64,000 nucleotides of DNA, from NCBI GenBank assembly GCA_023014365.1, contig JAEBUN010000003.1, forward strand, positions 2,604,001-2,668,000. The letters are read 5' to 3'. Made by a program: the position numbers and the translations under genes. A model generated the notes under the pieces. The model saw nothing but the letters and a program-made list of their open reading frames with translations, was not told the origin of the DNA and ran no database searches. The stretch comes from Lepiota brunneoincarnata (taxonomy: Eukaryota > Basidiomycota > Agaricomycetes > Agaricales > Agaricaceae). Positions 4,177 through 38,002 of this stretch are shown piece by piece. Numbering within the stretch: position 1 is the stretch's first letter; the number at the start of each line of letters is the position of its first letter.

Positions 4177-5476
4177 TGATATGCCGATTCATGCCTATAC
4201 ATGAATTCTGTACTCTGGAACGATTCTCTACATAGAATCATTGGCTATATCATTAAAGAACTCTATAGAGGATTGGTACTATGTCCCGTAGTAGCCAGTT
4301 CGACTGAATTGAGGATATTTAAGCCTCGGAAGTGTTCAAACCAGTTCATTATCACTAAGCTTAGTGAACCAAGCTATTAGAACACTCTCCGGAGGGATTC
4401 AGGACTCTACATAGCCTATCGAGTATACTCTGGTTGCATCAAGGGACCTTACAAGCAGTTTTCTGATGAACTCGGATTTGTTGGAACCTAAAGAATGTAC
4501 ATAGCAGCTGTCGCAGGTGTATTACACCCATAGCAAGCCTAATAATGATGACTGGACCATGGGATGGAATGTCCAATGTTCAGGAGGTGACACCCAATGC
4601 CCAAAAACCCTAGAAATACCAAAGACTCATAATTGACAAGTGCTTTGTGGGTCCTGGCACCTTGGCATATTGCCTAACTGAGATTAATTACAACAGATCA
4701 AGGGATTGTCCATATGCCATACATTCCGATCATAATTGATCCGCAGGCTTGACGCACTCGCATGGATGCAGAATAATACAGACAAGCATGGAACATGTCT
4801 GGCTGGATTGCCATTTGTCAATCAGAGAAAAACCCATAACCCAGGGCAAGGTAGAAATGCTGCTGAACCTTCCAAAATATTGTGCAGTACCTGTAACAAT
4901 TAAGCTTATTGTTCTCTATTTCATATTTACTATCTCTCGTATGTATCTAAACAATATAAATACAGTCACACTTGTTTGTGGAGAAGGAAGAGGTCTCACC
5001 CCTGCTTCCACATGCAAGTCTGCAAGCTGTGATCAAGAACGGTTTCAGAGGACTATTTAGTGTGTGTCATTAAGTGTGATTTCTTTGGTCGTCAACCAAC
5101 CCAGAGACAGAGACAGAGAACAAAGTCCAGAGTTTAGAGTTCCAGAGTGCTAGAAACAGAGACAGAGACAGAGAACAGAGTTTAGAGACCAGAGACCAGA
5201 GACTAGAGACCCTGTGCTGTGAATTGACAGGGATTGTCCTTTCATTGTTGCACTGTACAGCTAAGATAACTTCAACAGCTGTTCATTAACCTCTAAAACA
5301 CTACTCTCTTGAATTTCGCTGTCAGAATGCACCCCCAGAACACCCCAAAAGATGAAACTATTCATTATCTATCTCATACCACTTGTATTAGCTTAAGCTT
5401 ATTGAATTTCAGCTAAGCTTAGTGAGAACAAGCCCTCTATCTATATTAAAAATCCACAAACATTTCTACCTTTTCA
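4177..5476 (+). repeat. E1 5' LTR
   Basis: Starts TGATATGCC and ends CCTTTTCA (TG..CA). The family has five copies in the window: this one, 36755-37998 and solo copies at 22976-24267, 25203-26510 and 61295-62541. It holds a TATA-like TATAAATA at 4955-4962, a variable GACAGA microsatellite around 5100-5200, and four TAAGCTTA octamers (4356, 4901, 5394, 5414). Confidence 0.9.
4955..4962 (+). promoter_or_regulatory. TATA-like box in E1 LTR
   Basis: TATAAATA in plus orientation, the sense of E1 gag-pol, and conserved in the other LTR copies. It suggests U3 is about 780 bp. Confidence 0.5.
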
Positions 5477-5478
5477 TC

Positions 5479-5494
5479 TGGAGCCCACCATGAG
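5479..5494 (+). promoter_or_regulatory. Putative tRNA primer-binding site of E1
   Basis: TGGAGCCCACCATGAG begins two bases after the 5' LTR. It starts with TGG, the complement of a tRNA CCA end. The tRNA is not identified. Confidence 0.4.
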
Positions 5495-5606
5495 GGGGGT
5501 TTTCAGTTGAATTTCATGAGACAAACACCAAAAGACTTGGACACTGGCCTGCCTTTCACCTGTGAAGCAGAAAAAGGTTCAAGCAAAGACTGTAAAGTCA
5601 CCCAAA

Positions 5607-7045
5607 ATGTCCTTGGAGAGCAGTCTCAGGAAGGTTGACCCCCCAAAACAGAGAACTATTTGGAATTCTAATCATCCAGAAGGTTCTGAGGGCCTCATTA
5701 CCGCTAGTACCTCTTGAAAGTGACAGGATCCTACTAGTTCTATAGCTGTGAACACAGCAAGTGGTTCAGCAGTTGCAGTATTGAGAGAAGCTGTACCACC
5801 AACCTCTACTGCTCCCAGATTTACTATAAGGCTTCCAGCCTCAGCTTGCAACATAGTGCATATTCCGCACACCAAAAGCCAGGATGGTCAGATCGTTCCT
5901 ATGCTAAGCTTAGCGTTTACAAACCAAAACTTGTTTCATACAAACCCTCCTGGTGCCTCTACAGTACCACAGATATCACAGTCAACTCCGACTGTATGGA
6001 CAAACCAAACTACGCCATCTACGATGACTACAGCTAGAAAAATGGGACACAAGCATATGCCAATTCCCTTTAGCAATAATGCTCCCAGATGGGATGCATC
6101 AAAACCACAGACATTGAGAAATTATCTCTGGATGCTTGAATGGCTCTTCACGATAACAAAGATGATGGACAAGGCAGAAAGGATAAATTGGGCAGTATCG
6201 TATGTGGACCAGGATATCTGTGAAGAGTGGATGAGTTTTGTGGAGTTCCTAGCAGGAAGCTGGACAGGCTTCATAGAGAGATTGAAGAAAGAGTATCCCG
6301 AGACTGTGGCAGCTGAACAGGGCTCAGTGTGATGATTGAGGGAACTCTGCACAGAGAGTAGAGGCATTGCAATGAATGAGGAGCATAAAGTCTTGGACTT
6401 CAAAAGGCAATTCATTCTAGAAGCAGAGAAGTGCCTGAAGTTGCCGGCAGTAGTCTCAAATCAGGAGCTAGTTGAGTTATTTACGAGTGCACTGGACTCC
6501 ATGTTCCAGGATGTACTCAATGCGAGATTAGCAATCACCAGGGCACATAGAACCGCAAGCAATGGGTCAGCACTGACTGCGAAGGATTTACATGAAGAGG
6601 ACCCCTATGATTGGAGGATCATCATGGATAAAGCTGTCGAAATTTTGATTGGCAAAACACTTATGCGATCCCTGCATCAGGATTCAAGGCCAGTGAACTT
6701 GGCATTGATGAGCCATCCACCTGTGATGTCTGGAACAGGGACTTATGACCCTGTAGTAGAGAGCTGCAAAGCTTAAAGCAGAAAATTCAGGATGAAGTCT
6801 TGCAGATGGTAGGCAGTCTCGCTGAGCTTAAGGACCTCATGAATATCCAGGGGCATACTTTAAAATCATACTTAGAGAGTTTGGTGAAGGATGGACATAA
6901 CCATGCTGGCTATAATCACCTGCAGAGAAACACCAGGAGCGGGCCACCAGGGTCACTTTCCGATCGCAAGTGTTTCTACTGTTGGTTATTGGGGCATAGT
7001 TGGTTATTCTGCCCAGACATGGAGGTGGATAAACAAGCCAGCTGA
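5607..7045 (+). pseudogene. E1 gag
   Basis: Possible start at 5607 (MSLESSLRKV), then a capsid-like region around 6070-6780 (NNAPRWDASKPQTLRNYL, later WTGFIERLKKEYPE). The knuckle CFYCWLLGHSWLFC lies at about 6970-7012 (C-x2-C-x4-H-x4-C). Gag packages the element RNA into virus-like particles. The frame is broken by stops: TGA twice near 5715, a TGA TGA pair at about 6331-6336 where CGA CGA is expected, and another stop near 6776. It is the first coding unit after the 5' LTR. Confidence 0.7.
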
Positions 7046-7072
7046 ATTAGGGTTGAAGGGAACAAAATATAT

Positions 7073-9242
7073 ATGGGGGATAGCTTGAGTATCCCTCAGG
7101 GAGAAGGGCCTATTAAAGAGAAAGTGGCAAAGTACTATGCAACAAAGGGACAACTCTTTGTTCAGATACCAGAACTGCCGGAGGTTGAGCCTGAGTTACC
7201 GCAAGTACCAGCACCAGCAGTGTTTGCACAGAAAGTGTTCCCAAGGTCAGAAAACCAAAGGTCGCCAGTGGAAGAAGAAATCCACCATCTGAAGCAGTGC
7301 ATGGAAATGTTGGAAACAGCTGCCATCCACACTGGGAGTGCCCCAAAGGTTAAGCTTATGACCAGAAAGGATGATAATGTTGAGATACAGTCTTTGGCCA
7401 AGCAATTGGCCCAGATACAGGCTAAGCTTAGTGGTTTGATGGATGGTATGCCCTCAGCAAGCCAGTATTTGGACACTAGGAGTGGTGCGAAGACTTGGAA
7501 CTCGGAGTTGGGTTTCTAAAGGGTTTGAGGAAGGAGCCAGCTCTGAAGAAGAAGGTTACCTTTGCCAGAGGACAGACTCCTGAGGACATGTTGGATTTCA
7601 AGCAATCAGAAGAATCAGAAAAAGAGGAAATAGAGCAGACAATGGAGAAACCAACATATGCAGCAGCAGGGGAATTACCATATAGGAATGTGAAACCACT
7701 GTGCCTGGTCATTGAGGTACCACTGCTGCCTGTCAGGAGGATGGAACCATCCAGGAAGGAGCCTGCCTATAAGCACCAGGCCCCTATAGAGAGGAATGTT
7801 GATGTTGAGGAAGTACTCAGCAGGGTATTGAAGCGAGAAGCTTCAGTATCGCATGGAGAACTCCTAGCATTGTCACCGATATACAGGAATGCTTATAGAG
7901 AGTGAATTATGAGAAAACAGGTACCCATGAATCAAAGCTTAATAACAGGAGTTGGGCCCTGGGATGATGATACAAAAGATATAGAGATTAATAGTGGGCT
8001 GGTACAAGTCATGATAACAGAGCTAGCAGACAGCTCTCAGAAGTATGATACAGTGTGCCAAGAAGGCTTGGCAACCCAAGCCTGGGTAGCTCAGGATCCA
8101 ATCATGCAGTACTTGGAGTCACTTCCCAGAAGAGACAGGGGATGGCAAGTGTTTATTGCTAAAGAATGCGAACTCTTGAGAGTAGTGCCAACTCTGATAA
8201 ATGGGATTTGGCAGGAAGAGGCCTTGCTAGATAGTGGGTCACAGATCATATCCATGAGTCAGGAAGCAGCAATTGCATGTCAAGTTTCTTGGGACCCAGA
8301 CACTACAATTAATTTTCAGAGTGCAAATGGGCAGGTTGAAAAGACTTGTGGATTGGCAAAGAATGTAGGCTTTACCTGCAGGGGAGTCACAATCTATTTG
8401 CAAGTTCACATAGTTCACAACCCTGCATATCGAGTACTGCTGGGATGACCATTTGATGTAATGACTGCTAGCGAAGTCAGGAATAGTGCCAGTGGTAAGC
8501 AAACCTTGGTTATTACAGACCCAAATACCTAGAGAAAGGGCTGTGTTACCAACTTATCCTCGAGGAAAGTGTAATCCTCCTAAGCTTAGAGAAAACAGTC
8601 AAAACTTTCAAGAAACCTTGATGAGTTGACTAAGGGACAAGGAGAGGTGGCTTGTATAATAGACTATGATGATGAGAAGGGCCCTGTCATTGCACAAACA
8701 CTAAGCTTAGTGAAAGGAAGCTTCTCAGAGGCCAAGCTACAGCTAATGTTCATTGACCAAGTCATATGTGATGAGGACTGTCCACAAGAAGATAAAGCGA
8801 TGGCATTATTGTGCCTAGGACTGCATAGCCAATGTGCAGGATACTGAGGACCAGGGAATAACTGTCTTCGAAACTGAAGAGGATGATGAAGATACAGTAC
8901 AATGCCTGGCTGGGAAGAAATATAAACCAGTCACCTTAAAAGTGAGGCCAGTGTTGGGTGATTTACCAGAGAGATTCAGGATAAAACAAGAAATAAAAGG
9001 GGACCCACTGGCAGAAATGCCTGAGCTTAGCATGCATCCTCCAGAGTTTGTCCCAACAGACAGATATACTGAGGAGCATAAGCTTAAGCTGGACAAAGCC
9101 CATGCAGGGGATTTCTTGTAACCAGAGGAAAGAAAGCTGATGCACCATGTCATGATGCTTCAAGAGAAAGCATTTGCATGGACAGATGAGGAAAAGGGAT
9201 GTTTTAGGGAGGATTTCTTCCTGCTGATTGAGATACCAACGG
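7073..9242 (+). pseudogene. E1 gag-pol linker, aspartic protease and start of RT region
   Basis: Broken plus-strand frames. 7073-7905 encodes charged linker sequence. 7909-8448 encodes a retropepsin-like domain with the active-site block ALLDSGSQIISMS at about 8221-8259 and a C-terminal AYRVLLG, after which TGA replaces the Arg codon of the usual GRPFDV block. 8626-9121 is an acidic connector. The sequence ends at 9242 in IEIPT, exactly where E2 is inserted; the frame resumes at 30740. The protease would cleave Gag-Pol. Confidence 0.7.
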
Positions 9243-9403
9243 TGTTACCCGGGTTAGGGGTTCACTTGTGAGTAGCACAGAGTTTGACACAGGATGTCTA
9301 TACAGACTTGGTCCTGTCCTACTAAGCGTGACTTGGAGGCAACAGAGCACTATAGTCCAGCTGGTTTAGAGGCGAAGAGTTATAGGAGGCAAGAACTTTA
9401 TAA

Positions 9404-12400
9404 AACCTGCGCGGGTACACGGGTATGGGTTGGCCGGGTGTGGGTGCAGGTCCAACATCAGGTACCCGCATGAAACCCGTACCCGTGGCACAGGTCTGGC
9501 GGGTTTTTTTGAGGCACTATTATTCTAATCACCACTACTGTACAGTTTACGCCACACATATTTTCAAGACAGTTGACTCCCATCAGAATGGCTCCAGCTC
9601 TATCGAAACTCACAACGTGTCTCACAACCCAACCTGAGATAACTACACGACAGAAAAGGAAAGCCTCTTCTAGAATAACTGATGAAAACTTTGTCAGTGC
9701 AGAGAGCAATGTTGTCACCAAGCATCTCAAGCTGTCAGCCAATGCTGCACGGGCTGCAGCTGCAAAATGTCAACATAGGCAACCATCAGTTGAGGACATT
9801 GAGGATGAGGACAGTGCATCCATGAATAACCCACCGAAAAACCAGAATGCCATTCTTGAGGACTGCCGATGGAAGTGATGATGTTGACATGCTAGATAAC
9901 AATCCAGCTCCAGCACCTGAGGACTTCGAAGAGGATGACGACGAAAAGGACAATGATAAAGAGGATGACAATGACGAAGTTGAGCCGGAGGTAACTAAAC
10001 CCATTGAGACTGGCAGAAGAACAACACAGTGAGTCAAACAAAACGTGGTGAGAACACTGAACCCTGGCTCACCCAATTTCCCCATTAGAATGACTATCTG
10101 ATGAGTGGATGGCTCCGATCTATGTGTTCTTCCAGCCAACTCCTTCCATTGTGACAGTTGATGGACAGGCATGTCCATGAATTCAGGTGCACTGCATCAA
10201 ATTGTAAGGGACATGGCAAAAACCCAAGAATGGTCCAACGTTACCTTGATACATCTGATCGAAACTTGACAGGAAACCTTCGCAAGCATGCGTGACTGTG
10301 TTGGGGAGATGAAATCTTACACTGGTGTGGATGCTTGTGGCGACCTAGAGAGTGCTCGGGAAGGGTTAGACAAAGCCAAGAAGTTAAAAGACAGATCAAT
10401 CATGACAGCCTTTGAGAGGAAGGGGAAAGGAAAGATTACCTTTTCTCATCGCCAACATGATAAAGCCCAAACTAGGTTTGTGGTGAATCAACTATCATCT
10501 AACCTGTCTAATGTATAGCTCAGGGCTGAAATCGTTCAGTTGGGTATCAGAAAGCATGCGACCTTTTTCGATTGTTAGTGATCGAGGATTCCAATGCCTG
10601 ATGAAGACTGGCAGACCGGAATATTACATACCTTCTCCTTCCACTGTCTTGCGTGATGTCAAGCAAGTGTTCACGAAGGTTCGGGGTAGGATTGCGAAGA
10701 TGCTTCAAGTAAGAATTCAAGTCAGCTTCGTGATGACATAGGACGAGATTGATTTACCCCATCCAGGAACATGAGGGTGCCCTCAGCTTCGGGACAGACA
10801 CATGGACTTCGCCTAACCACAAGGCTTATATTGCTGTAACCGTCCACTTTGAGCAGAACAGGGAGCCAATGTGTCTTCTGCTTGACCTTGTTGAGGTTGC
10901 AAAGTCTCATTCCGGCATGAATCTTGCATCCAGCATTCGCGAAAATACTAGTTGATTTTGGGATAGCGCACAAGGTAAATATGCTGGATGATTTACATGA
11001 AAAAATGGGACTTACGGTGATCTTGCACACCAGATTCTCAGTGTTACATGCGATAATGCATTGCCAAATGACGTGATGATCGATGCACTTGCTGAGCTAA
11101 TTATTGCGTTCCCAGGTGCTGCAAATTGAACGCGTTGCTTTACACATATTCTGAACCTAGTCATCAAAGTAATCCTTTGCCAATTTGATGTGCTGAAAGC
11201 CAAGGCAGATGAAGTGCTTGATGTGGCATCGCAGGTGCTGGTAGACCTTGCAGGAGATATCGATATGGAGGAAGGCAGCGATGGACGAGAGAAATGATGA
11301 TGAGGATGATGACGGAGAAGAGGGTTGGGTCAATCCACACAATGGGATGTCACAGGAGGATCAAGATGAGCTTGATCTGGCAGTGCATCCAGTGCATTTG
11401 GTCCTAGTAAAAGTAAGTTTAAACTCAGATTAAACCCTAATGCCAGACCAGTACTCATCCAATCCAGCTACGAAAACTTGCGTATGCGATCAAAAACTCC
11501 ACAACAATCCTACTCCCTTGCTGGATTCAGCTCCTTGAAGATCTGGTGGATGATGCTACTGATCCCCTTGCCATTCAGATGATGCCACGCGACGTTGCGA
11601 CACGCTGGAATTTGACATACAACATGCTCATGTTTGCTCTCGAATATCGCAAGGCAATCAATGGAATTTCTGGTGACAGGGACATGAGGAAGTATGAGCT
11701 TTCAGATGAGGAATGGGAGCTGGTTCAGCAGCTGTGTGATGTATTGGGAGTACGTTGTGCTGGCCGTCTTCCCATATCCTGCCACTCACGTTTTCCCAGA
11801 TATTCAAGGACGCTGACCCTTTTCTTTTCGCGTTCGACACCAAACCTTGCCACTGTGATACCTGCAATGGACCACATTGATGTGCATCTTGCAACTGCAA
11901 GCCAAGACTTGAACTACTTGCTTGCCATTCGTGCTTCGCTGGCACTCGGAAAAGCCCATCTAAACAAATACTACGACATGACTGACCAGTCAGAAGTCTA
12001 CCGAATCGCCATGAGTGAGCAGCCCTTCCCCCTGATCATTCTATTCAATTACAATGCTTTTGAGCAGTCTTACATCCACAACACAAACTTCAATATTTCC
12101 ACGATGCCAACTGGGATGACGCGTGGATCACCACTGCGACAGCGATCATCCGTGATGAGTTTGAACGAGCATATGTGGACCTCCCCATCGATGAGGTTGT
12201 CGTTTGTACAAAAAATGTATGTGCTACCCATCCAATGTCTTTCTGCATCGAAACTTGCTAACATACATTTTTAGGCCACTAGACCTACCAAGCAGAACAT
12301 CTTTGACGACCTACCATCAGTTTCTGCCCCCATTGCCTCCAAGCTCAAGGACGAGCTCCAACAATACCTCGAGTGTCCTGTCGAGAACATCAAGAATGCA

Positions 12401-12947
12401 TTTGCGTGGTGGGTCAAAAACCAGATGGTCTACCCCCATCTCTCTCGGATGGCAGTTAGACTACTTGTCAATACCAGGTATGTGTTCTGTCATTAGTCTC
12501 CCGTACTCGATCTAACGACTCCTACAGCTACTTCAGTTGATGTGGAGTGTGTCTTCAGTAAAGGAAGACTCATTCTATCTCATGTTCGGAATGGACTCTC
12601 AGTTCAGTCCACGCGTGCATTGATGTGTCTCAGTGCTTGGAGCAGGATGGGTTTGCTGAAGGATAAGGATGTGATGCAGGCTGCGAGACTGCCTGATGTA
12701 GATGGGAGTGAGGCTGAGCTAGATGGTCGTTGGGATGATATATTGTAGTAGTACAAGTTGCTAATCTACTATCTACGACATGAACCCGTGGTGCCAACCT
12801 GCATGGGTTTCCATACCCAGCGTAACCCGCAAGTACCTGTACCCATACCTGCCTGTACCCATACCCATGAGCACGGGTATGGGTTTCACGCAGGTACGGG
12901 TATGGGTAGAGGTCGAGTGACCCATGGGTTACCCGTGACATGCACTA
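9404..12947 (+). mobile_element. hAT DNA transposon inserted in E2 LTR
   Basis: 3.5 kb interrupting the LTR. Both subterminal regions are filled with repeated GGGTACGGGTATGGGT-type motifs (9410-9510 and 12780-12940) in both orientations. The interior encodes a hAT transposase. I find no 8-bp target duplication at the LTR junctions and no clear terminal inverted repeat, so the ends may be deleted. Confidence 0.75.
9573..12748 (+). pseudogene. hAT-family transposase with BED finger, degenerate
   Basis: Read piecemeal on the plus strand. An acidic N-terminal segment (9573-10032) is followed by a BED zinc finger around 10190-10320 (CTASNC, then NLRKHA). Next come conserved fungal hAT blocks: FERKGKGKITFSHRQHDKAQ (10410-10470), RPFSIVSDRGFQ (about 10560) and GTDTWTSPNHKAYIAVTVHF (about 10790-10850). 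The C-terminal dimerisation region follows (VDVECVFSKGRLILSHVRN, about 12540-12600). Frameshifts, stops and possibly introns separate the blocks. It would have catalysed cut-and-paste transposition. Confidence 0.8.
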
Positions 12948-13272
12948 CACTAAGATAAGGATACAAGGTAATGTACTGTATCCTTATATACTTCTAAGTG
13001 TGGCTGTACTCCTACTGTAATAGTCCAGACCAGAGTAACTACAAGTCAGAGATAAGGGACATGAGGCATAACTAAGAATAGTCCTTCTGATGTACACTAC
13101 TGATGGTTTCATAGTGACATGGGAATGTAAACTAAAAATAACCGTCCTTCTGATAAGACTTCTGATAACATTAGGTCCGTTTCTAGAGTTGTTTTCCATT
13201 ACAACTCGTTAGTTTCCTTCTTCCGGGTATTTGGCTAAGTAATTTGGTTTGTAGTAGTCGACTTGAGGTTGG

Positions 13273-22797: not shown

Positions 22798-22975
22798 ATT
22801 TTCCGCTGACCACCCACCACACCAAGAAACAAAATTTATTGGACAAGTACAACTACCTGTCCGTATTGTTCCCAGAGGTGCGGGGCAGCACCGCCGCATC
22901 CTCCATCATATCTCGCACCTCCTCTTCCAAAATGCCTCTGATGCTCTCCGACTCCTCTGACTCCTCCGTCTCCGT

Positions 22976-24267
22976 TGAAAAGGTAGAAACTTTCGTAGGT
23001 TTTAATATAGATAGTGGGCTTGTTTTCACTAAGCTTAGCCGCAATTCGATAAGCTTAAGCTAATACAAGTGGAATGAGATAGATAATGAACAGTTTCGTC
23101 TTTTAGGGTGTTCTGGGGGTGCGTTCTGACAGCGAAATTCAAGAGAGTAGTGTTTTTAGAGGTTAACGAACAGCCATTGAAGTTATCTTAGCCATACGGT
23201 GCAACAATGAAAGGACAATCCCTGTCAATTCAAAGCGCGGGGTCTCTGGTCTCTGGTCTCTGGTCTCTGAACTCTGGTCTCTGTCTCTGTCTCTGTCTCT
23301 AGCACTCTGGAACTCTAAACTCTGAACTCTGGTCTCTGGGTTGGTCGACTGACCGAAGAAATCACACTTAACGATGCACACTAAATAGCCCTCTGAAACC
23401 GTTCTTGATCACAGCTTGCAGACTTGCGTGTGGAAGCAGGGGTGAGACCTCTTGCTTCTCCACGAACAAGTGCAACCATATTTATATTGTTTAGATACAT
23501 ACGAGAGATAGTAAATATGAAATAGAAATCAATAAGCTTAATTGTTACAGGCACTGTAGAACATTTTGGAAGGTTCGGCAGCATTTCTACCTCACCCTGG
23601 GTTATGGGTTTTTCTCTGATTAACGAATGGCAATCCAGCCAGATGTGTTCCATGCTCGTCTGCATTATTCTGCATCCACACAAGCGCGTTAAGTTTCCGG
23701 ATCAATTATGATCGGAATGTATAGCGGATGGACAATCCCTTGATCCGTTGTAATTAATCTCAGTTAAGCAGTATGCCAAAGTGCCGGGACCCACAAAGCA
23801 CTCGTTAATTAGGAGTCTTTGATATTTCTAGGGTTTTGGGCATCGGGTATTGCCTCCCGAATGTTGGACGTTCCGTTCCGTGGTCCAGTCATCATTATTG
23901 AACTTGCTATAGACGTAATACACCCGCAACAGCCGCTAGGTACATTCTTTTATGTTCAAACGCATTCGGGTTCATCAGAAAACTGCTCGTAAGGTCCCTT
24001 GATGCGACCGGGGTATACTCGATAGGCTATGTAGAGTCCTGAATCCCTCCGGAGAGCGTTCTGATAGCTTGGTTCACTAAGCTTAGTGATAATGAACTGG
24101 TTTGAACACAGTCCGAGGCTTCGAGTATCCTCAATTCGGTCGAACTGGCTACTACGGGATATAGTACCAATCCTCTATAGAGTTCTTTAATGATATAGCC
24201 AATGAGTCTATGTAGAGAATTGTTCCGGAGTATGGAATTCATATATAGGCGTGAAATCGGCGTATCA
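22976..24267 (-). repeat. Solo LTR, E1 family (copy C)
   Basis: TGAAAAGG..CGTATCA, reverse orientation relative to E1. Target duplication CCGT (22972-22975 and 24268-24271). Contains TAAGCTTA four times. Inserted in the E4 antisense gene; relatively CpG-rich compared with the E1 LTRs. Confidence 0.92.
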
Positions 24268-25202
24268 CCGTAATACCCCTACTCGACCAGTCACCATCCA
24301 CCTGCGCTTCCCAATGCCACAACTGTTCATAGCGGCCAGTTGTCAATTCAACCTTATCCACCCTCTCCCCCAACTGAGCGATGGCCTGTTTGAGCTGCAC
24401 CTCCATGATATTGACCTGTTTGAGGGTTGTCTGGTGCCCCTCCTCGATAAGTTGCTTCAGCTCTACGGGATCATTTGGTCAGCAAACCTCGCAGTCAGAA
24501 ACCCCTACTCACCTTCAAATTGGTGGTCTGGCATACCTCCTGTCTCTTCTTGACCCCCACATCATTTCTTCATTTTGCTACACTGTCGGCAACTCCTAGT
24601 GTTGCTGGGACCTTTGTTAGCATTTATCATCGTTGGAATTCTTGTATTTACTTACCCGCCTGGCAATCTCACACCGGACCTCATCCTGCTGACATCACCA
24701 GCATGGGTTATCACCCCCGAATATGTGTTTGTTGCCCCACCACGGGGCCGCCCTCGCCTTTCCCTTTCCCTTTCCCCTTCCCTTTGCATCTGAATCTTTG
24801 GACTCCTCCTCCTCCTCCTCCTCTTCGTCCCTCGCCGCATCATTGCCCTGTGTAATTCAGGTCGGACTCTTCGTGGTCGACTTCCATGGGCTGCTCTGGC
24901 AGGTGGCTGGATGAAGCTGTCGTAGTCATCGCAATGAGTCAGGCCCAGATTGCCTGATGTTCATCCTCAGCAGCTTCCTCTTGCTGTTGCCTGATCTCTT
25001 CCACCTGTCGCTCCCTAGCCTGCTCCTCTGCTTGCCACTGACTGCAGTTCAATCATATGTCGCCTGTTCTTCCTCTTGACACTCTACTGCCAATTGCCTG
25101 TTCCTCCTCTCACCATTCCTCCTCTTCCAACCTCTCGATCTCCATCCACATCTGCTCCTCCTGCTCCACCTTTTCCCTCAGTAACTGTGCCTTGCACTCC
25201 GC

Positions 25203-26510
25203 TGAAAAGGTGGAAACAGTTCATGGGTTTTAATATAGATAAATGGCTTGTTCTCACTAAGCTTAGTCGAAATTCGATAAGCTTAAGTTAATACAAGTAG
25301 TATGAGATAGATAATGAACAGTTTCGTCTTTTAGGGTGTTCTGGGGGTGCGTTCTGACAGCAAAATTCAAGAGAATAGTGTTTTTAGAGGTTAACGAACA
25401 GCCATTGAAGTTATCTTAGCCTGTACAGGTGCAACAGTGAAAGGACAATCCCTGTCAATTCAAAGCACGGGGTCTCTAGTCTCTGGTCTCTGGTCTCTGA
25501 ACTCTGTTCTCTGTCTCTGTCTCTGTCTCTAGCACTCTGGAACTCTAAACTCTGTACTCTGTTCTCTGTCTCTGTCTCTGGGTTGGTCGAACGACTGAAG
25601 AAATCACACTTAATGATGCACACTAAGTAGTCCTCTGAAACCGTTCTTAATCACGGCTTGCAGACTTGCTGTGTGGAAGCAGGGGTGAGACCTCTTGCTT
25701 CTTCACTGCACAAGCGCGACCGTATTTATATTGTTTAGATACATGCAAGAGATAGTAAATATGAAATAGAAAACAATAAGCTTAATTGTTACAGGTACTG
25801 CAGAATATTTTGGAAGGTTCGGCAGCATTTCTACCTTGCTCTGGGTTATGGGTTTTTCTCTGATTGACTGAATGGCAATCCAGCCAGACGTGTTCCTGTG
25901 CTCATCTGCATTATTCTGCATCCACACAAGCGCGTTAAGCCTTCGGATCAATTATGATCGGAATGTATGGCGTATGGACAATCTCTTGATCCATTGTAAT
26001 TAATCTCAGTCAGGCAATATGCTGAGGTGCCAGGACCCACAAAGCACTCATTAATTATGAGTCTTTGATATGTCTAGGGTTTTGGGCATTGGGTGTCGCC
26101 TCCCGAATGTTGGACGTTCCGTTCTGTGGTCCGGTCATCATTATTGGGCTCACTATGGGCGTAATACACCTGCGACAGCCGCTATGTACATTCTTTAGGT
26201 TCCAACAAATCCGAGTTCATCAGAAAACTGCTCGTAAGGTCCCTGGATGCAACCAGAGTATACTCGATAGGCTATGTAGAGTCTGGAATCCCTTCGGAGA
26301 GCGTTCTGATAGCTTGGTTCAGTAAGCTTAGTGATAATGAGCTGGTTTGAACACTTCCAAGGCTCGAATATCCTCAGTTCAGTCGAACTGGCTACTACGG
26401 GACATAGTACCAATCCTCTATAGAGTTCTTTAATGATATAGCCAATGATTCTATGTAGAGAATTGTTCCGGAGTACGGAATTCATGTATAGGCGTGAAAT
26501 CGGTGTATCA
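25203..26510 (-). repeat. Solo LTR, E1 family (copy B)
   Basis: TGAAAAGG..GTGTATCA. Target duplication CCGC (25199-25202 and 26511-26514). Inserted near the 5' end of the E4 antisense gene, just after codon 12. Confidence 0.92.
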
Positions 26511-26596
26511 CCGCCGTGGTTGGTTGTTGAGACGATTGACTGCTCATGGTGGTAGGAAGTCAAGTTGTGTATTTTCAGACCGAACCAGTTCACCTG

Positions 26597-27348: not shown

Positions 27349-28009
27349 ATATTTTAGCCCATCGGATGAATCTCTGAGGGATCTCAGGTGGTTCCTTGTT
27401 TGATTCCGGTTGTTTTCCTTTTTGGTTTGCCGATTTTGTTGGATTGCATTGCTCATTGTGGAGCATTGTGGCATGTGTAGCTTTGGTGTTTACTTCTAAT
27501 GGGGTTAGAAGCATTGGGTTCATTTCTCTTTCTAAAGAGAAGGTGTCAAGGTCAACATTTGACAGGTTGACATATTCTTCGGGGTTGTCCTCAGGTTGCA
27601 AGGTTTTTCCAGCCATTATGTCCATGGCAATGGAGTTGAGTTTGACAGGTCATCATAAGGTTCTGAGGAGTTTGGAAAAGTCTTGATGATCAATTTGGGG
27701 TTTCCAAGAGAATGTCTTGGTCTTCCAGTTGATGTCAGGATTGTATTGTTCCAACCAGGGAAATCCAATGATGAGGTCTTTCTCACCAGTGTTTGTGACA
27801 TATGCTTCTAGTGTGCAATCTCTTCCATCAATGATGGTTCTGATTTTGATGTATTCATGGATCTTGCCATGTTGATTGTCAGTTCCATCAATGTTGCTGA
27901 GGGGAATTGGTTGGTCCAGCCATTTGGTTTGATAACCATGTCGTTCAACGACTTTGTGGGAGATAAAGTTCCCTTGGGCTCCTGAGTCTATCAGGGTGGT
28001 GATGGCCAC
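27349..28009 (-). pseudogene. E2 aspartic protease and RT N-terminal linker
   Basis: Minus strand, immediately 5' of the E4 insertion. The protease is at 28009-27653 with active site TLIDSGAQGNFI and later IIGFPWLEQYNPDI, a block typical of chromovirus proteases. Linker sequence with EYVNLSNVDLDTF follows, up to the junction at 27353. The same domain is intact in E3 (start of the frame at 47895). Confidence 0.75.
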
Positions 28010-28268
28010 AGGTTTTGATGTCCGTTCACTCCAAATCTCAATGGGTAGGAAAAGGGATCATTTATTCGGGGATAGTCATAATTGTACAGAATTTATCGAG
28101 AAAATGTCCTTCTGGGAGTGAGAGTATGAGATGTCCTTCTGAGTTCTGGAATGTGCAGGGGCACATCAATCAACAGCGTTCCTTTTTAAAAATCCTGGAA
28201 TGGACACATCTCTGGATCCTTGGCTAGCACAGAGTGGAGTTCTTGTTGTAACTTGGGATCGAGTTCAT

Positions 28269-29576: not shown

Positions 29577-29928
29577 AAGTAAGTTTTCCTCTGATTGGGA
29601 AAGTTCTCTTGGTTGTTTGAGGGCGTATTTGAGTTTTTGAAGTTCAAAATCATTTAGTGGGTTTACTTTGGCATGATATTCTTTGACTTGTTTGCATTTT
29701 CTTTCTTCTCATTCATTATGTTCTTTTAATTCTCTTTCATGTTGTAATCTTTGTCGTTCTGCTAGTTCTTCAGCAAAACTTGTTCGAGTGCATGTGGATG
29801 TTGATGCACTTGGAGCAGGTGAGTCGAATGGAGATGGGGGATAGAATGGAGATGGTGTTTGAGTGGGTATAGGGTTTCTTCTGGGATCCAGATTTTGGGT
29901 TCCTGATCTGGAGATTCTACTTCTCGAT

Positions 29929-30321
29929 TTAGGAGGAGGTGATGGAGTTTCTCACACTGAGAACTTCTTGGGAGGCGTGGTGGTAGTTGTCTAGCTGATC
30001 AATTATCGCTAGAAGAATGAAAAATTGGGTTGTGATGATGGAGATTCCTGAGTACAGGTTCCACAATCTGATGACACAGCAGTGGCAGGGGCACATGATG
30101 CATTCGAGTTCTAGGGTGATTATTTGATAGGCAATAAGGGTGGTGGTGGAGGTGAAGATAAAAATGAGTAGGTAAGCCAGGTCTTCTGGTGGGGAGAGGT
30201 TGAGGGATGTAGCGATGGCTACACAGAGGGGTGGTTTTCTTTTGTACGTTGTTTTGAACGACCAGAGTACCTCGACGTGTTCAGTACATCTGTAGAGCAG
30301 AGTGGAGCAGAGGGTGAGCAA
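29929..30321 (-). CDS. Hydrophobic leader ORF of E2 (putative two-pass membrane peptide)
   Basis: 130 codons on the minus strand between the E2 5' LTR and gag. Two strongly hydrophobic stretches, LAYLLIFIFTSTTTLIAY and SIITTQFFILLAII, flank a Cys-rich turn (CIMCPCHCC). There is no resemblance to Gag. It could be a leader-encoded membrane peptide, captured sequence or chance; the equivalent region of E3 does not show a matching ORF. The start is the first Met after the LTR. Confidence 0.35.
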   Translation of the reverse strand: MLTLCSTLLYRCTEHVEVLWSFKTTYKRKPPLCVAIATSLNLSPPEDLAYLLIFIFTSTTTLIAYQIITLELECIMCPCHCCVIRLWNLYSGISIITTQFFILLAIIDQLDNYHHASQEVLSVRNSITSS

Positions 30322-30350
30322 GAGATAAGCAGCAGAGTATCTTAGTGTTT

Positions 30351-30734
30351 TGTTACCTGGGTTAGGGGTTCACTTATGAGTAGCATGGAGTTCGACACAG
30401 GATGTCTATACAGACTTGGTCCTGTCCTACTAAGCGTGACTTGGAGGCAACGGAGCACTATAGTCCAGCTGGTTTAGAGGTGAAGAGTTATAGGAGGCAA
30501 GAACTTTATAACACTAAGATAAGGATACAAGGTAATGTACTGTATCCTTATATACTTCTAAGTGTGGCTGTACTCCTACTGTAATAGTCCGGACCAGAGT
30601 AACTACGAGTCAGAGATAAGGGACATGAGGCATAACTAAGAATAGTCCTTCTGATATACACTACTGATGGTTTCATAGTGACATAGGAATGTAAACTAAA
30701 AATAACTGTCCTTCTGATAAGACTTCTGATAACA
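30351..30734 (-). repeat. E2 5' LTR
   Basis: 384 bp, TGTTACCTGGG..TGATAACA as seen on the plus strand. On the minus strand it carries TATATAAGG (30546-30554). Right flank AACGG matches 9238-9242. Confidence 0.92.
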
Positions 30735-30739
30735 AACGG

Positions 30740-32600
30740 TAGAACATACTCCATGGGTTGAAAAGCCCATTCTGATTCCACCAGCAATCTATGATGAAGT
30801 CTGTGCCATTATAAAAAGAAAGATTAGTGCTGGTGTATATGAGCTGTCAAACTCATCCTATAGATCCAGATGGTTCTGTGTGGTGAAGAAAGATGGAAAA
30901 GGTTTGAGACTGGTACACAGCTTGGAACTGCTGAACAGAGTGACAATAGCGCATTCAGGGCTGCTGCCAGCAACAGAAGATTTAGTGATGCACTTTGCAG
31001 GCAGAGCTTGTGGAGGCATTCTGGACCTGTATGTTGGCTATGACGAGCAATTGTTAGCAGAGTCATCTTGGGACTTAACAATGTTCCAGACACCTTTTGG
31101 AGTGCTATGCTTAGTGACACTACCCATGGGATGGACCAACTCAGTGCCTATATTTCATGAGGATGTAACAGCGATCCTAGCCAGTGAGATACCAGAATAC
31201 ATGATGCCATACATAGATGATGTACCTATCAGAGGACCAAAAACTAGATATGAGTTGCCAGATGGCACTGAAGAGATGTTGAAAAAGAACCCAGGGATCT
31301 GACAATTTGTATGGGAACACATGCAGATGGTCAATAGGATTCTACAGAGGATGAAATATGTAGGAGGAACCTTCTCTGGGCCCAAGACAACTATCTGCAC
31401 TGATGAAATCACCGTAGTGGGTTTTGAATGCTCCTATAAAGGACAGTTGCCTGCCACAGACACCATCAGAAAAATTTTAAGATGGGGGGATTGCAAGAAT
31501 GTCTCAGAGCTAAGGGATTTTCTAGGAACAGCTATGCACTGCAGGAATTATATCCTGAAGTTCATAGCCATTGCTGCACCTCTATACAAGAAGCTTAAGA
31601 AGGGACAAGAGTTTGAATGGGGAGAAAACGAATGGAAAGTGCAGCAGAAGCTGAAAGATGCGATTCAGCACTGTTTCCCAACCAGGAACCCCAAATTTCT
31701 GAGTAAACAACCCATAGTAGTAGCTGTGGATACCTCATGGAGGGTGGTGGGATACTACATATATCAGAGAGATGGAGAAGATGCTAAGCTTATACATTAT
31801 GTGAAGTTTGGGTCAATATTATTGGACGAGAGACAGCAGAGGTATTCTCAGCCCAAGTGAGAGCTATGCAGCTTAAGAATGGTGCTGGAATAAGAGAAAT
31901 ATTTACTGTGGGGATCAAGAAACCTAGTGGTTGAAACAGATGCAAAGTTTCTCTTTGGGATGTTAAACAACCCAGGGAAGCTCCCAAATGCTACTGTAAA
32001 CTGTTGGGTGGACTTCATTAGGTCATTCCACTTCACGCTAGTACACAAAGAAGGGAAGACATTTGGGCTGGATGGGCTGTCCAGGCAATGCTACTATCCC
32101 AGTGATGAGACAGCCCATTGCTTTGATGATGGATCCAAGGATGAGGGAGAAGAGTTTGAGTTATTTAAAGAAGATCCAGGAGCTGCAGATCCTTTACCCT
32201 TGGAGGCTTTCTGTGATGAAATTGACAGTCGCTCTGGCTTCAACCAGGGTCTGACACATGATGTATATGACTTTGAGTATGAGCTGGATCAAGCTCAGGA
32301 AGAGTACTTGGATGAACAACAGGCTAAGCTTAGGGTTATAGAAGACCCAGCCTGTCCAGAAAACCATTGACAAGTACTAAGCTTAATGACAGATATCAGG
32401 CTAGTGCCAGAATTCAAAGAGGAAAAGTTGACCAAGATAGGGGAAGCATATGATGAATCATGCAGGACAGATATGGCACAAATACAAGATGAGAGAATAC
32501 CCAAAGTCAGGGAATACCTGAAAATAGGGGGCAGTAGCGCAGCTGAAGGCTTGGATGAGCCGGATCTGCGTAAGTCCAACCAAGCATCATCACTGTGAGA
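30740..32600 (+). pseudogene. E1 reverse transcriptase and RNase H (continuation after E2)
   Basis: Plus strand; in frame with the sequence ending at 9242. RT: SRWFCVVKKDGKGLRLVHSL, DLYVGYDEQLLAESSWD, then MPYIDDVPIRGP at about 31205-31240 (YIDD motif). A TGA at about 31279 and another at 31858 occur where Arg is expected. RNase H: VAVDTSWRVVGYYIYQ (31720-31770) and VETDAKFLFGMLNNPG (31930), ending GKTFGLDGLSRQ. An acidic tail and a connector (about 32386-32598) follow. I find no integrase zinc domain or DDE core after this; the antisense genes begin within about 100 bp. Confidence 0.82.
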
Positions 32601-32693
32601 TTTGGACTTGTACTCATCACACGAGTGAGACAAGAGGCTTTGGAGTTCCTGGAGCAGACAAGCTGGCTGGGATAAGTGTTAGAACTGTTAAGC

Positions 32694-33766
32694 TTAGCAA
32701 ATGGAAGTGAGAAAATGCCCACCAGATAAGCCTGCAAAGGTGTGCTCTTCGGAAGCAGACTCGGTACAGGTGCACTTGGCAGTATTGGCGTTGGCTTTGG
32801 CTAGAACCTGTTCAGCCCAGGCATAACAGCAGTGTTTAGTGTTCATATTGGGAACTTGACAATAGGGAAGAAGACGGATGGTGCCTTTAGACGACAAGGA
32901 CTTTTTGATGGTCTCCTAACAAAGGATGAAGTCAGAATCAGTGGTTAGGGGGAGTAGAGCTGGTGCACCATGTTGGAGGTAGACAAACAACACTTGTGAT
33001 AAGGTGAAACTACACGAACCTCTTCAACGATAGCTTGAGAGACCTCCTCATCAACCATCATGTCCTGAAGGTGAGCGATGATCTCAGCCAATGTAATAGG
33101 TTGAGAAGCAGCTAGATTACTGTGTTAGCACTGGTTGCTCAGGAGTTGGAAGTGCTGGGCATACTCTCAGCAGGCTTGGTATTGGTGTCTACCACAACAG
33201 CAGCAGAGACAGGGGCCTTGCGACCCTTGCAAGGCTAAGCTTATACATGAGAAAATGATTGGAGCCAGAAGAATGCTAAGCTTACATGTTTGGGGACAGC
33301 AGAGCCTTCAGCAGCATTAGAGGAAGTAGAGCCAGTTGTGAACGACAGGTGCTGACCCTCTTCGGTCCTTGTTTTGTGGGATTCCTCAGAGCGGATGCAA
33401 TTAATGCGGCTACAGCATTCAGAGAGTGCCTTATAGATAGCAGGCATCTCATAAGATGAATGGTAGTTGTTTTGGTAAATTTTGTAGAGCTTGTGAATAC
33501 AGAAGACATAGTCCTGGTTGACATGAAGCTTGATAGCCTTGGTGTCCTCCAATAACACTTCAATATAAGCAGACTAGAAGATAATTGAACAGTGAAGAAA
33601 GAGACATGGGGACAAATAGACATACCCCAGGAGCATCAAACGCAAGGAGAGCCTTCTCGACAAGGGGACGAGTGACTTGACTGTTTTGCAGGCGCTGAAG
33701 ATGACCTTTGGTGATGCTGATGAGATCATTGAGCTCGACCTGGAGATGGGGGATAGAAGAAGCCAT
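32694..33766 (-). pseudogene. E1 antisense gene B
   Basis: Minus-strand gene between E1 pol and the 3' LTR. Start at 33766 (MASSIPHLQVELNDLISITK), 45 bp downstream of a TATA box. An intron with donor GTATGT and acceptor CTTCTAG (about 33560-33630) joins to AYIEVLLEDTKAIKLHVNQD. Downstream text is charged and Ser/Thr-rich (ECCSRINCIRSEES), then degenerates into short frames to about 32694, where a Cys-rich tail can be read (KHCCYAWAEQV, KCTCTESA). The family is not recognised. It is convergent with pol. Confidence 0.45.
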
Positions 33767-33810
33767 TTTCTTGTGAAGAGTGTCTGCTAGAGTGAGATGT
33801 CACTCCCTTG

Positions 33811-33818
33811 CTTTTATA
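33811..33818 (-). promoter_or_regulatory. TATA box of E1 antisense gene B
   Basis: TATAAAAG on the minus strand, 45 bp before the ATG at 33766; spacing similar to the E4 antisense gene. Confidence 0.5.
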
Positions 33819-34396
33819 TCAAAAAGCTGTTGGCAGTGATGCTGAATCATAGTGAGTGGATGAAATGCACCCTCCACCCCTAAGCTTATGACCTGAGATG
33901 CCTAGGAAACCTGTAATCTTGAGTAGCCAGCCTTCGACAGACTAGCTGAACCACAGTGGCCTTATTAGGTAACATGTTGCCAGGGTCTCATGGTTATCAG
34001 TGGGCACAGGGATTCTGATGGAATGGTGAGGGCACCAATTTCAATTTGGGTAGGGGGAGATGGGCCCCAAGTGGCGCTTTAGCAGCAGTGGGCAGTGAGC
34101 TTTTTCATAAACACTGTGTACAGGCTGGTTCGGATTCAGGCTTGTAAGTAAGCCAGATGAATGGGTTACTATGTGTTGTGGATCACCTTGTGTTGATGTC
34201 TCAATAAACATTGCAGGAATAACAGAGAAATACATGGTGAAAGTATTAGGCAGCTGGAAACCTTAGCCTAGCTTGGGATCTTCCAGATGGTCCTAAGCTT
34301 AACTCAGTAAGAGACAAGAACAACAAGATGACTATTGGGATGTATATACATGACAAGATTATATACTACATCCAAGAAGTAAACTAGGCACAGAGA

Positions 34397-36434
34397 TCAG
34401 TCAAGGTCCTCTAGAACAGATTCGGGATCCTGAGTCATCAGGAAGGCAAGGAAGAGAAGCAACTTGAGCTCCTCAAATTCCTCGTAGGTCAGGACCCCTG
34501 GAAAGTTGTCAGCGAACTCAAAGAATGCCTGGACGTCTTCAAGGGACTCAGCCATACCCATCTCTACAAAGGCCATGTTGTTACCATCCAAGGCTGTCCT
34601 GGTAGCTTGCATCTCCTGGACAAATTGGTAAACTACACAGCGGTGGTGGAAGGCCGACGCCTCATAGGCAACACGATTGGCCTCCAGACTGACCAAGCTG
34701 GAGGATGCAACATGTGCGAAGGCAGTGAGATCTGTGAAACAAAAAGTGAATAAAAGAGAAAAATAGTGAACAGAGAAACTTATGGTATTCACTGGTCAGT
34801 GAGGACATGACCAGGGCATTTGCAATGCCAGCTGAGACCCGCAGATGGTCCACGATAGTACAAGGGTAATTATATAAGTCGCAGCTGCAACACTTTTTAC
34901 CCTTGCCCAGAGGCTCACACTCCAACTTACGAGTGGTGCAAGTAGGGCACTGAGACTGAGGTGGCACATACTAGTGTGGGTGCAAAACCATCAGTAAGAA
35001 AACACAAGAAAACTTGGAGAACATACCAAAAGCTGGCTAGCTGCCAGCAGCCTAGAAAAGTCCTCACAAAAGAGTGGGACTGGGTGCCAGTATCCATGAT
35101 CCCAGATTATTTTGGCTTCAGAATGTCAGATGCAAGCATGAGGAGTGTATTTCTTTGGGCATGTGTTGGAGCTTTTCTTTGGCAGATTTACATGCTGGCA
35201 ACATAACCCTGAAGGTCCTGCTTGAGGAGGCAAGGATTGGGATATTTCTGGGACCACTGGGCTCAGCACATGAGAGGGAATGGGGGTCAGAGAAGCTAAG
35301 AATGTGTCTTGAAAAACAAAAGTCGGTCCTTGAGGGGCAGGCAAGGGCTCCAGCAGTAATTCCAAGTCTGGAGAGGGCGAAACCTCTGTGACATGGGAAG
35401 GGGCCTCAGCAGGGGTACAAGGAATCAGAGGTGGCAATGGCATGGGGCATCTGGGTGAAGCCAGCACATGTTGCCCTTCAAGATTTGAAGACCACTTAAA
35501 CAGTTGGTAGAGGTTGTCTTGGGAGACCTCAGGACCTGATGAATGTGAGGGTGAATTTGAATTTGCCAAGAACAGAGGCATAGGGGGCAGTGTTGATGAT
35601 TTCACCTTCTGTTTGCCTTTAAGGGCAGCTGGGATATGTGCTAAAGCAGAAGTCAGCAAAAAGGACAAATATACCTTGGAAAAGGCTAAGCTTATGCATT
35701 GAGGTAGCCGAAGAGAGTACAGGGGAGGAGGGGTGGAATTGTTGAAGGGCCTGGCACCTCTGAACCTGATGCAATACCCAGGGGAGGGAGCACCAGCAAG
35801 TCTTCCCTTTCCAGGGTGCACAGAGAGATGGTGAGAGGGGGCAGTAACATTGAACTGGACAAAGCCTCTGTGGATAATCCACCAGAGGGCCCACCAACAG
35901 GGACACCTGATGAAAGGTCTGCGGAAAATCCAGCAGAACTCTCATCAGTTGGATTGCACAGTGACACAATTGAGATGATGCATCTTGAAGCTGGTGCAGG
36001 CATTGGGGTTGAAGGCCAAGGGGTTGGGCTTTGTGGTGGCAAATAAGGTGGCAGAGGTGTTCTTGGCACACCTACCTGACAATTTCCGTGAGCTCCTCAC
36101 CCTACTTGCCCTCCTCTAGCCCTCCTAAAATGTGGTGCTGGTACCAGCAGTGGGGGTGGGTGGTCATGACGCGCTGGCAGGCAAATGGTTAGACCTAAGC
36201 CAGCGAAAAACATGAGTCAGGACAAAGTGACTGCGAGAAAAACACAACTTATGTTGTGCAATCAAGGGAGATGATGCATTTTGAAGGACCTGTGAGGCAT
36301 TGCTTGGCCCAGCATAGTCTGAAAACAGCATTAGAAAAACAAAGATAACTGTAATGTGAGCTCTACTCACCAGAGGAGGAGTCCATGTCTGCTTTGTATC
36401 GGGCACATTTGCTGCTGTGCATGTTTCTGTCCAT
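34397..36434 (-). CDS. E1 antisense gene A: intron-containing, paired C-x2-C-x6-C module
   Basis: Minus-strand gene just inside the 3' LTR. Proposed start 36434 (MDRNMHSSKCARYKADMDSS), then an intron of about 52 nt (GTGAGT..TTTTCAG). A long Pro/Ser-rich middle (36069-35126) follows, with a further possible short intron near 35650. An intron of about 57 nt at about 34970-35030 (GTATGT..ACTAG) precedes the Cys module at 34860-34950: CPTCTTRKLEC, nine residues, then CCSCDLYNYPC. Another intron (about 34740-34800, acceptor TTTCACAG) leads to a helical C-terminus (LTAFAHVASSSLVSLEANRV to the stop at 34397, LEDLD). The last exon is open for over 100 codons. The module resembles a Zn-cluster DNA-binding domain and matches the E4 antisense gene. 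Exact exon joints in the middle are unsure. Confidence 0.6.
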
Positions 36435-36754
36435 TGGATAAAAGAAGGTGTTGAAGAGTGATATGCAAGCAAGATAGGTGAGGTAGACAGGGAGAGAGCA
36501 AGTGAAAAAGCGAAAATGAGACCTTGGGACTTTTAAAAGACCCAATAACAAGATAAAAATTTAAGCTATAGCAACAAGAAATTGATCTATACATTTAAAC
36601 TTGGTGACATGACATCATTTGGAATAAGCTTAGCAAAAGTACACTACCCTCGAAGCTGGTGAACGTTCTAGAACATAGAGCGCATCAGAGAGACTCAGAT
36701 ATTGCAAATTTGAAGGAGATAATGACTGAGGACAGTCAGCAATTGGTTAGGGGG

Positions 36755-37998
36755 AGATACACCGATTTCATGCCTATACATGAATTCTGTACTCCAGAAC
36801 AATTCTCTACATAGAATCATTGGCTATATCATTAAAGAACTCTATAGAGGATTGGTACTATGTCCCATAGTAGCCAGTTTGACTGAACTGAGGATATTCG
36901 AGCCTTGGAAGTGTTCAAACCAGCTCATTATCACTAAGCTTAGTAAACCAAGCTATCAGAACACTCTCCAGAGGGATTCAGGACTCTACATAGCCTATCA
37001 AGTATACTCCGGTCGCATCAAGGGACCTTACAAGCAGTTTCCTGATGAACTCAGATTTGTTGGAACCTAAAGAATGTACATAGCAGCTGTCACAGGTGTA
37101 TTACACCCATAGCAAGCCCAATAATGATGACCAGACCACAGGAACGGAATGTCCAACGTTCAGGAGGTGACACTCAATGCCCAAAAACCCTAGAAATACC
37201 AAAGACTCATAATTAACAAGTGCTTTGTGTGTCCTGGCACCTTAGCATATTGCCTAACTGAGATTAATTACAATGGATCAAGGGATTGTCCATATGCCAT
37301 ACATTCCGATCATAATTGATCTGCAGGCTTAACGTGCTTGCATGGACACAGAATAATGCAGACAAGCACAGAACACACCTGGCTGGATTGCCATTCGTCA
37401 ATCAGAGAAAAACCCATAACCCAGGGTGAGGTAGAAATGCTGCCAAACCTTCCAAAATATACTGCAGTACCTGTAACAATTAAGCTTATTGTTCTCTATT
37501 TCATATTTACTATCTCTTGTATGTATCTAAACAATATAAATACAGTCACACTTTCAGAGGACTACTTAGTGTGCATCATTAAGTGTGATTTCTTTGGTTG
37601 TTAACCAACCCAGAGACAGAGACAGAGAACAGAGAACAGAGTTTAGAGTTCCAGAGTGCTAGAGACAGAGACAGAGACAGAGACAGAGACAGAGAACAGA
37701 GTTCAGAGACCAGAGACCAGAGACTAGAGACCCCACACTTTGAATTGACAGGGATTGTCCTTTCACTGTTGCATCATACAGCTAAGATAACTTCCATAGC
37801 TGTTCATTAACCTCTAAAAACACTACTCTCTTGAATTTCACTGTCAGAACTGCACCCCCAGAACACCCTAAGTGACAAAACTGTTCATTATCTATCTCAT
37901 ACTACTTGTATTAACTTAAGCTTATCGAATTTCAACTAAGCTTAGTGAGAACAAGCCCTTTATCTATATTGAATTTCATGAACATTTCCATCTTTTCA
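36755..37998 (+). repeat. E1 3' LTR
   Basis: Matches 4177-5476 but begins AGATAC (first base changed from TGATAC) and lacks about 70 bp around the R/U5 region. Ends TTTTCA. Four TAAGCTTA octamers (36935, 37481, 37917, 37937). Preceded by a purine-rich TTAGGGGG. Confidence 0.88.
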
Positions 37999-38002
37999 GC
38001 AC

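Follow-up and report, generated by a model that had tools for sequence, protein, structure and literature searches.

Why should a single eight-letter word recur along the whole length of a retrotransposon, in coding and non-coding DNA alike, and be missing from the DNA around it? The question is raised by E1, a Ty3/gypsy long terminal repeat (LTR) retrotransposon with LTRs of about 1.3 kb, which lies in a 64-kb stretch of contig JAEBUN010000003.1 (positions 2,604,001 to 2,668,000, the window) from a basidiomycete-like fungus. The word, TAAGCTTA, is a perfect 8-letter palindrome, and its enrichment and specificity for the E1 family are confirmed here. Tentatively, and with what we judge to be a little under an even chance of being right, the sites may form an operator array read by a dimeric protein, encoded by antisense gene A of the element itself, in a role resembling that of the Arabidopsis VANC proteins but built differently.

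Enrichment and family specificity of the palindrome

The window contains 36 exact copies of TAAGCTTA, against an expectation of 0.65 and a maximum of 3 over 100 shuffles. All of them lie inside E1 or its solo LTRs: 16 in the E1 internal sequence, and 4 apiece in the two E1 LTRs and in three solo LTRs. The original prediction had listed 16 internal copies and four per LTR and had noticed none elsewhere; every internal coordinate proved exact, both LTRs gave a count of 4, and the 47,655 window bases outside E1 and its solo LTRs held no exact copy. With its 16 occurrences the word tops all 8-mers of the E1 internal sequence, where the runner-up palindrome occurs twice. One-mismatch relatives do exist, as claimed, although the internal sequence holds 6 and not the five that had been named; a further 10 lie in the 47,655 bases outside.

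The 55.6-Mb assembly contains 5370 copies of TAAGCTTA versus 842 of the reversed pattern and 419 of TTAGCTAA, a control palindrome of the same composition. The first 100 sites in the genomic listing include 96 that have a neighbour within 2.6 kb, and six of the eight motif loci that were aligned proved to be E1-like DNA, the other two being single sites in non-E1 DNA. In the loci sampled, the motif is enriched in other copies of E1 and rare in unrelated sequence. A full copy of the element (the C1 copy) carries 23 sites per one LTR and internal region, namely 4 in the LTR (3.12/kb), 12 in gag-pol (1.74/kb) and 7 in the 3' antisense part (1.56/kb). Fourteen of the 16 internal window sites are also TAAGCTTA there, in one case after shifting the alignment by 1 base; of the remaining two, one reads CAAGCTTA and one lies past the alignment end. 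The spacing of sites along the C1 copy is indistinguishable from random, and a search for a tandem array built on TAAGCTTA found none.

E1 is ordered as gag-like open reading frames (ORFs), aspartic protease, reverse transcriptase (RT), RNase H, H2C2 integrase, intron-containing antisense genes and 3' LTR; the presence of LTRs, protease, RT, RNase H and integrase places it among the Ty3/gypsy LTR retrotransposons, and its named pol relative, 63% identical, is from Agaricus bisporus. The Pfam model gag-asp_proteas scored above its cut-off for window 7906-8445. The CCHC knuckle of the gag-like ORFs was seen by reading and is sub-threshold in Pfam, as is RNase H in the window piece; the RT was assigned from a YIDD motif (by reading) and from the pol relatives, the Pfam RT model giving no match to the window pol piece. 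On the forward strand lie the 5' LTR (4177..5478; TAAGCTTA at 4356, 4901, 5394 and 5414), the internal 5' part with gag-like ORFs and protease (5479..9243; 5905, 7351, 7423, 8581, 8702 and 9079), the pol part with RT and RNase H (30738..32574; 31785, 32325 and 32378) and the 3' LTR (36763..37999; 36935, 37481, 37917 and 37937). The region of the antisense genes, which separates pol from the 3' LTR (32579..36762; 32689, 33236, 33277, 33881, 34294, 35687 and 36625) is on the reverse strand, as are the three solo LTRs at about 22970..24270 (23030, 23050, 23533 and 24078), 25200..26515 (25258, 25278, 25777 and 26323) and 61290..62545 (61349, 61369, 61808 and 62354). Sites were mapped in gag, in pol and in the antisense genes, in coding and non-coding DNA, just as the original prediction had described.

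The window E1 is a broken copy: a nested insertion parts position 9243 from 30738, stops are present, and at 32574-32579 about 1.5 kb including the integrase is missing (equivalent to L010 290-1826 of the C1 copy). It is 90%, 91% and 82% identical to the C1 copy in its 5', pol and 3' parts, respectively. An RT piece found at least 150 matches in the genome among 1042 candidates; most of the matches listed are 85-95% identical to it, and several of them sit in open frames of 1261 codons.

Repeats of other kinds were also seen in the window. The E1 LTRs hold a 7-bp CAGAGAC/GGTCTCT tandem repeat (5101-5211, 23241-23339, 25471-25581, 37611-37731 and 61560-61615). Another set of related repeats, which have CTTCTGATA words towards one end, lies at 13084-13170, 30648-30734 and 53827-53912, and one of its members sits at the edge of the insertion nested in E1. 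Tandem repeats of 10-11 bp and CAGTAATGTG type, which a different repeat family has in common, are found at 1924-2008, 40764-40892 and 62804-62888.

Conservation and gain of the sites

Conservation of the motif, which the original prediction had put forward as a check, was found overall, in the LTRs and in the 3' region, the gag region giving no significant result. When four other copies were compared with the C1 copy, 37 of the 43 sites covered were intact (11/13, 14/15, 9/11 and 3/4), versus 25.0 expected from AT-matched non-CpG 8-mers (1/5000). Across 10 LTRs all 39 of the sites present were intact, with 0 changes in 312 cells, whereas other non-CpG columns vary at 3.0%; an equal lack of variation was seen in 88 of 5000 random non-CpG choices (92 when AT-matched). 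Pairwise mapping of four copies of the 3' region gave a variation of 0.4% in motif columns versus 6.8% (1/5000), where not every copy spans every site and one 1-base gap within a site was left uncounted. For 31 copies of the RT region the corresponding values were 0.7% versus 2.2% (210/5000; 332 with AT matching), and a count over RT loci made without CpG control gave 24/2000. The compared copies share ancestry, so these tests are partly dependent. In the LTRs, columns with a CpG in at least one copy vary at 22% versus 3%, a choice of columns that itself favours variable ones; such variation is as expected were E1 cytosine-methylated, in which case anti-silencing would have a target.

Two approaches to conservation were abandoned. 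Aligning 30 RT loci jointly gave a poor result (motif variation of 0.17 versus 0.26, 82/5000), so the pairwise mapping took its place, and a genome scan for decay with exact flanks was uninformative because exact flanks pick similar copies (motif intact in 5/5 and 33/33, control 8-mers in 6/6 and 43/44). At two neighbouring gag positions, L009:5434 and L009:5491 (window ~9022 and 9079), E1 copies are polymorphic, with TGAGCTTA/TAAGCTTA at the former and CAAGCTTA/TAAGCTTA at the latter, possibly reflecting the turnover of one site into the other.

Two related families, E1b (RT 77-80% identical) and C22 (57%), served as outgroups. The E1b copy on C17 has 1 TAAGCTTA site, and none was found in 16.2 kb around C22. 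The 12 gag-pol sites of E1 were placed on E1b by codon alignment, and at the 11 with usable flanks E1b matches TAAGCTTA at a mean of 2.55 of the 8 bases, versus 4.54 in other windows (1/10000) and 3.71 in flank-matched windows (62/10000). These alignments are free of gaps within the 8 bases; identity in the flanks is low (0.19-0.75), and most of the coding sites fall in faster-evolving parts of the proteins. A first version of this test, made with a broken E1b copy that left 6 usable sites (2.33 versus 3.70 of 8, 153/10000), was superseded.

The coding sites occupy both of the codon phases that avoid an in-frame TAA, nine encoding xKL and three LSL, and therefore do not represent a single peptide motif. 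Retention above control 8-mers, the use of both phases and the unlikeness to the aligned bases of E1b argue for selection on the nucleic-acid word itself. The bases outside the core are also patterned. For 26 sites, 25 of them distinct (window 32689 being the same as L010:1937), the 52 symmetrised flanks have C or T at -1 in 40 cases, T at -2 in 2 and A at -3 in 3, mirrored preferences that look as they would for the footprint of a dyad-symmetric protein. A splice-donor explanation (GTAAGC) was rejected, G standing at -1 in 3 of the 52.

The antisense genes and their relatives

Antisense gene A, on the reverse strand, comprises Pro/Ser-rich N-terminal exons (35126..36100, boundaries approximate), an exon with a Zn2Cys6-type cluster (34785..34970), the part considered as candidate reader of the motif, and a C-terminal exon (34400..34732). 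Antisense gene B (33240..33800, reverse strand) has a weak homologue in E1b and no Pfam match above cut-off. Introns may be retainable in such genes because the genomic RNA would be unable to splice them.

The cysteine spacing of gene A is C-X2-C-X6-C-X8-C-X2-C-X6-C. Zn2Cys6 clusters are spaced C-X2-C-X6-C-X5-12-C-X2-C-X6-8-C, a pattern that fits E1 (window, L010 and L012) and the homologue outside the element described below; E1b has X7 in two loops. All six cysteines are kept in 6 of 6 aligned sequences, namely three E1 copies, two non-E1 gene copies and E1b; the degenerate copy L067 has lost cysteines. Comparison of three E1 copies puts dN/dS at 0.08-0.22 in the Zn exon and at 0.07-0.14 in the C-terminal exon, values indicating that gene A is under purifying selection, and at least 17 full-query matches, among the matches listed, are stop-free and 96-100% identical. 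For the C-terminal exon, AlphaFold run on the host homologue with a 7-sequence alignment modelled a helix of 46 residues (pLDDT 80), which might correspond to the coiled-coil dimerisation helix that comes after a Zn2Cys6 cluster. Sequence searches found no relatives of the Zn exon or of the exon-joined host protein, and no solved structures. In its cysteine spacing and in the order of cluster and predicted helix, gene A resembles the fungal Zn2Cys6 (Gal4-type) regulators, from which it differs in a Pfam score below cut-off and in the absence of a CGG half-site, classic for Gal4-type regulators, from the palindrome. The suggestion in the original prediction that an antisense-encoded Cys-cluster protein is the binder gains from the Zn2Cys6 spacing, the invariant cysteines and the purifying selection, and loses from that score.

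An open homologue of gene A with the same intron position also occurs outside E1, on C35 (L063:6300-7672) and C60 (L065:6270-7637), which are 97-99% identical over the main stretches compared and are probably alleles. It is 60% and 58% identical to L010 over the Zn exon and 61% over the C-terminal exon. The adjoining gene, histidine-kinase-like with HAMP and HATPase_c domains, together with the lack of any match to the E1 RT piece and of TAAGCTTA in the 31 kb at this locus, suggests that the homologue is a host gene. Domestication of a gene of the E1 lineage and capture of a host gene by E1 both fit its origin. Spaced TAAG...CTTA dyads showed no excess near it.

The gene A of E1b is far from that of E1, with 23% identity over the Zn exon. 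As an E1b-specific word, GTTAACTA was considered and rejected, its 7 copies in LTR and internal sequence lying inside the simulated maxima of 6-10; the genome holds 6 copies of its extended palindrome, TAGTTAACTA, versus 84 of the reversed control. In the one copy of C22 analysed, 8-mers of the word AAACTCGGA (CTCGGA type) occur in 7 copies, partly as a 20-nt tandem repeat (L044:2889-2928; L045:2915-2956 and 6257), at the upper edge of simulations.

What may read the array

The picture that best accommodates these data is an element-wide array of dyad-symmetric sites, each made up of the TAAGCTTA core and mirrored outer bases, which would be read as double-stranded DNA by a homodimer. Most likely the reader would be the protein from gene A, in which a Zn2Cys6-type cluster precedes a predicted long helix. 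This gene ranks first among the candidates on three counts: the element itself encodes it, it has been maintained, and its cluster is of DNA-binding type. Going further, occupancy along the whole length might keep E1 transcriptionally competent or otherwise mark it, and such broad occupancy might protect it from silencing. The VANC-like, anti-silencing interpretation is a plausible hypothesis. Doubtful, though still worth stating, is the fuller version, in which about 20 palindromes, installed despite amino-acid changes, would form a self-recognition code of E1, a dimer of the antisense zinc-cluster protein would avert silencing, and the fungus would keep a captured or domesticated copy of the regulator.

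Several observations weigh against a gene A reader or against the selection of its sites. The Zn_clus model (PF00172) matched the L010 copy with E=0.0056 and 17.2 bits, below the curated 21; the scores of the gene A pieces (17.2, 15.6 and 15.1 bits) all stay under that value, and L012, E1b and the window piece went unmatched. The structural model of the Zn exon is poor (pLDDT 53.7), and Foldseek with the C-terminal model returned nothing at E<=0.001 and no significant PDB match. E1b has a gene A homologue yet lacks the array, and no replacement motif was found in the one copy of E1b analysed, its commonest 8-mers lying within simulated maxima. Likewise, the 31 kb at the host homologue are devoid of TAAGCTTA. 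Conservation in the RT region is modest, and in the gag region (4 copies) it is non-significant, with 2.3% versus 3.0% variation (1856/5000). Finally, the site dropped from the gain test for its gapped flanks, L009:4994, had the highest match to E1b (5/8), and including it raises the mean to 2.75.

Selection for a dyad DNA word is silent on whose protein reads it, and it is conceivable, if rather unlikely, that a host transcription factor or chromatin protein recruited by E1 for activation, insulation or chromosomal positioning binds the sites and that gene A does something else. The sites are densest in the LTR (3.12/kb versus 1.56-1.74 elsewhere), where host regulators act, but they also run throughout gag, pol and the antisense region, exceeding the needs of a promoter. 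With about 96 of the 100 sites at the head of the genomic listing in clusters, single ones are few, so that host use of the exact word is not evident, although natural host targets could be variant words. It appears improbable that the palindromes work at the level of the genomic RNA, where they would be contacts for dimerisation or packaging. Retroviral RNAs use palindromes as dimer contacts, two RNA copies can pair through a self-complementary 8-mer, and the genomic RNA can include every one of the sites; some 20 scattered contacts with mirrored outer bases, however, suit a protein footprint at least equally well.

Two further explanations are given very little weight. E1 might use the sites as preferred insertion targets and so land in E1 as in a safe haven, which would agree with the way E1 copies and solo LTRs cluster both in the window and on C1, but the bases flanking the window E1, by reading and for this one insertion, differ from TAAGCTTA. 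The word might equally be a functionless product of a mutational process, such as C-to-T change resembling repeat-induced point mutation (RIP) or the spread of a repeat. Both-strand C-to-T change of CAAGCTTG does yield TAAGCTTA; this origin is disfavoured by the unrelated flanks of the sites, by their being common to copies and retained above control 8-mers, by the many copies with open pol frames and by the lack of enrichment of TTAGCTAA.

An array read by the gene A protein would be closest in outline to the VANDAL elements of Arabidopsis, of which E1 is nevertheless not a member. According to the published accounts, VANDALs are Mutator-like DNA transposons with dense, family-specific motifs of 8-9 bp in non-coding tandem repeats (YAGTATTAY or AGTTGTCC/AC, depending on the family), for which VANC binding and demethylation were demonstrated (PMC5735166, PMC10398659). 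E1 likewise combines a short family-specific word, present many times per element and rare elsewhere, with an element-encoded candidate DNA-binding protein. It differs in being an LTR element known here from sequence alone, in having a perfect palindrome at single dispersed sites that include coding DNA (12 of 23 in gag-pol), and in that the one analysed copy of the related family E1b shows no different word above simulation. The VANC analogy drawn in the original prediction thus holds for a family-specific, conserved word acting at the nucleic-acid level and fails for tandem repeats, for confinement to non-coding DNA and for a replacement motif in E1b.

Other systems share single features with E1. 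The RM boxes of the Ty1/copia Sireviruses are palindromic and mostly CGG-CCG-cored, and cluster upstream of the LTR promoter and close to env (PMC2829016); they too are high-copy dyad words in an LTR retrotransposon with a proposed regulatory role, whereas E1 has the core TAAGCTTA, running through gag-pol, and gypsy-type integrase and protease pieces. The antisense ORFs of Grande and Retand are described as being of unknown function, with the TRP28 domain of Retand predicted to bind DNA (PMC7264820, PMC11963269). E1 was found to share the antisense coding between pol and the 3' LTR; unlike Retand, it combines a cluster of Zn2Cys6 type with a target-like word along the whole element and with a homologue at a non-E1 locus, and TRP28 (PF04195) was absent among the Pfam matches to E=1 for the scanned pieces of genes A and B. 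Genes of TET/JBP dioxygenases ride fungal DNA transposons, including those of Agaricomycetes, and the same study reports none in retrotransposons (PMC12730594); they resemble the E1 proposal as element-encoded counter-silencing proposed in fungi, and differ in being enzymes without a known sequence specificity.

By titles and abstracts, no earlier report of the TAAGCTTA word, of an LTR element encoding a zinc cluster or of dispersed palindromes in LTR elements was found in the open-licence literature. If the proposed reading is true, E1 would to our knowledge offer the first example of sequence-specific self-recognition among fungal LTR elements; E1b would then be a natural negative control, and the homologue outside the element would offer a comparison. 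Many gypsy elements have antisense genes between pol and the 3' LTR, with a function that the literature gives as unknown (PMC7264820, PMC11963269). The coupling in E1 of such a gene, with a cluster of DNA-binding type, to a dense and apparently selected dyad word makes the function of antisense genes testable.

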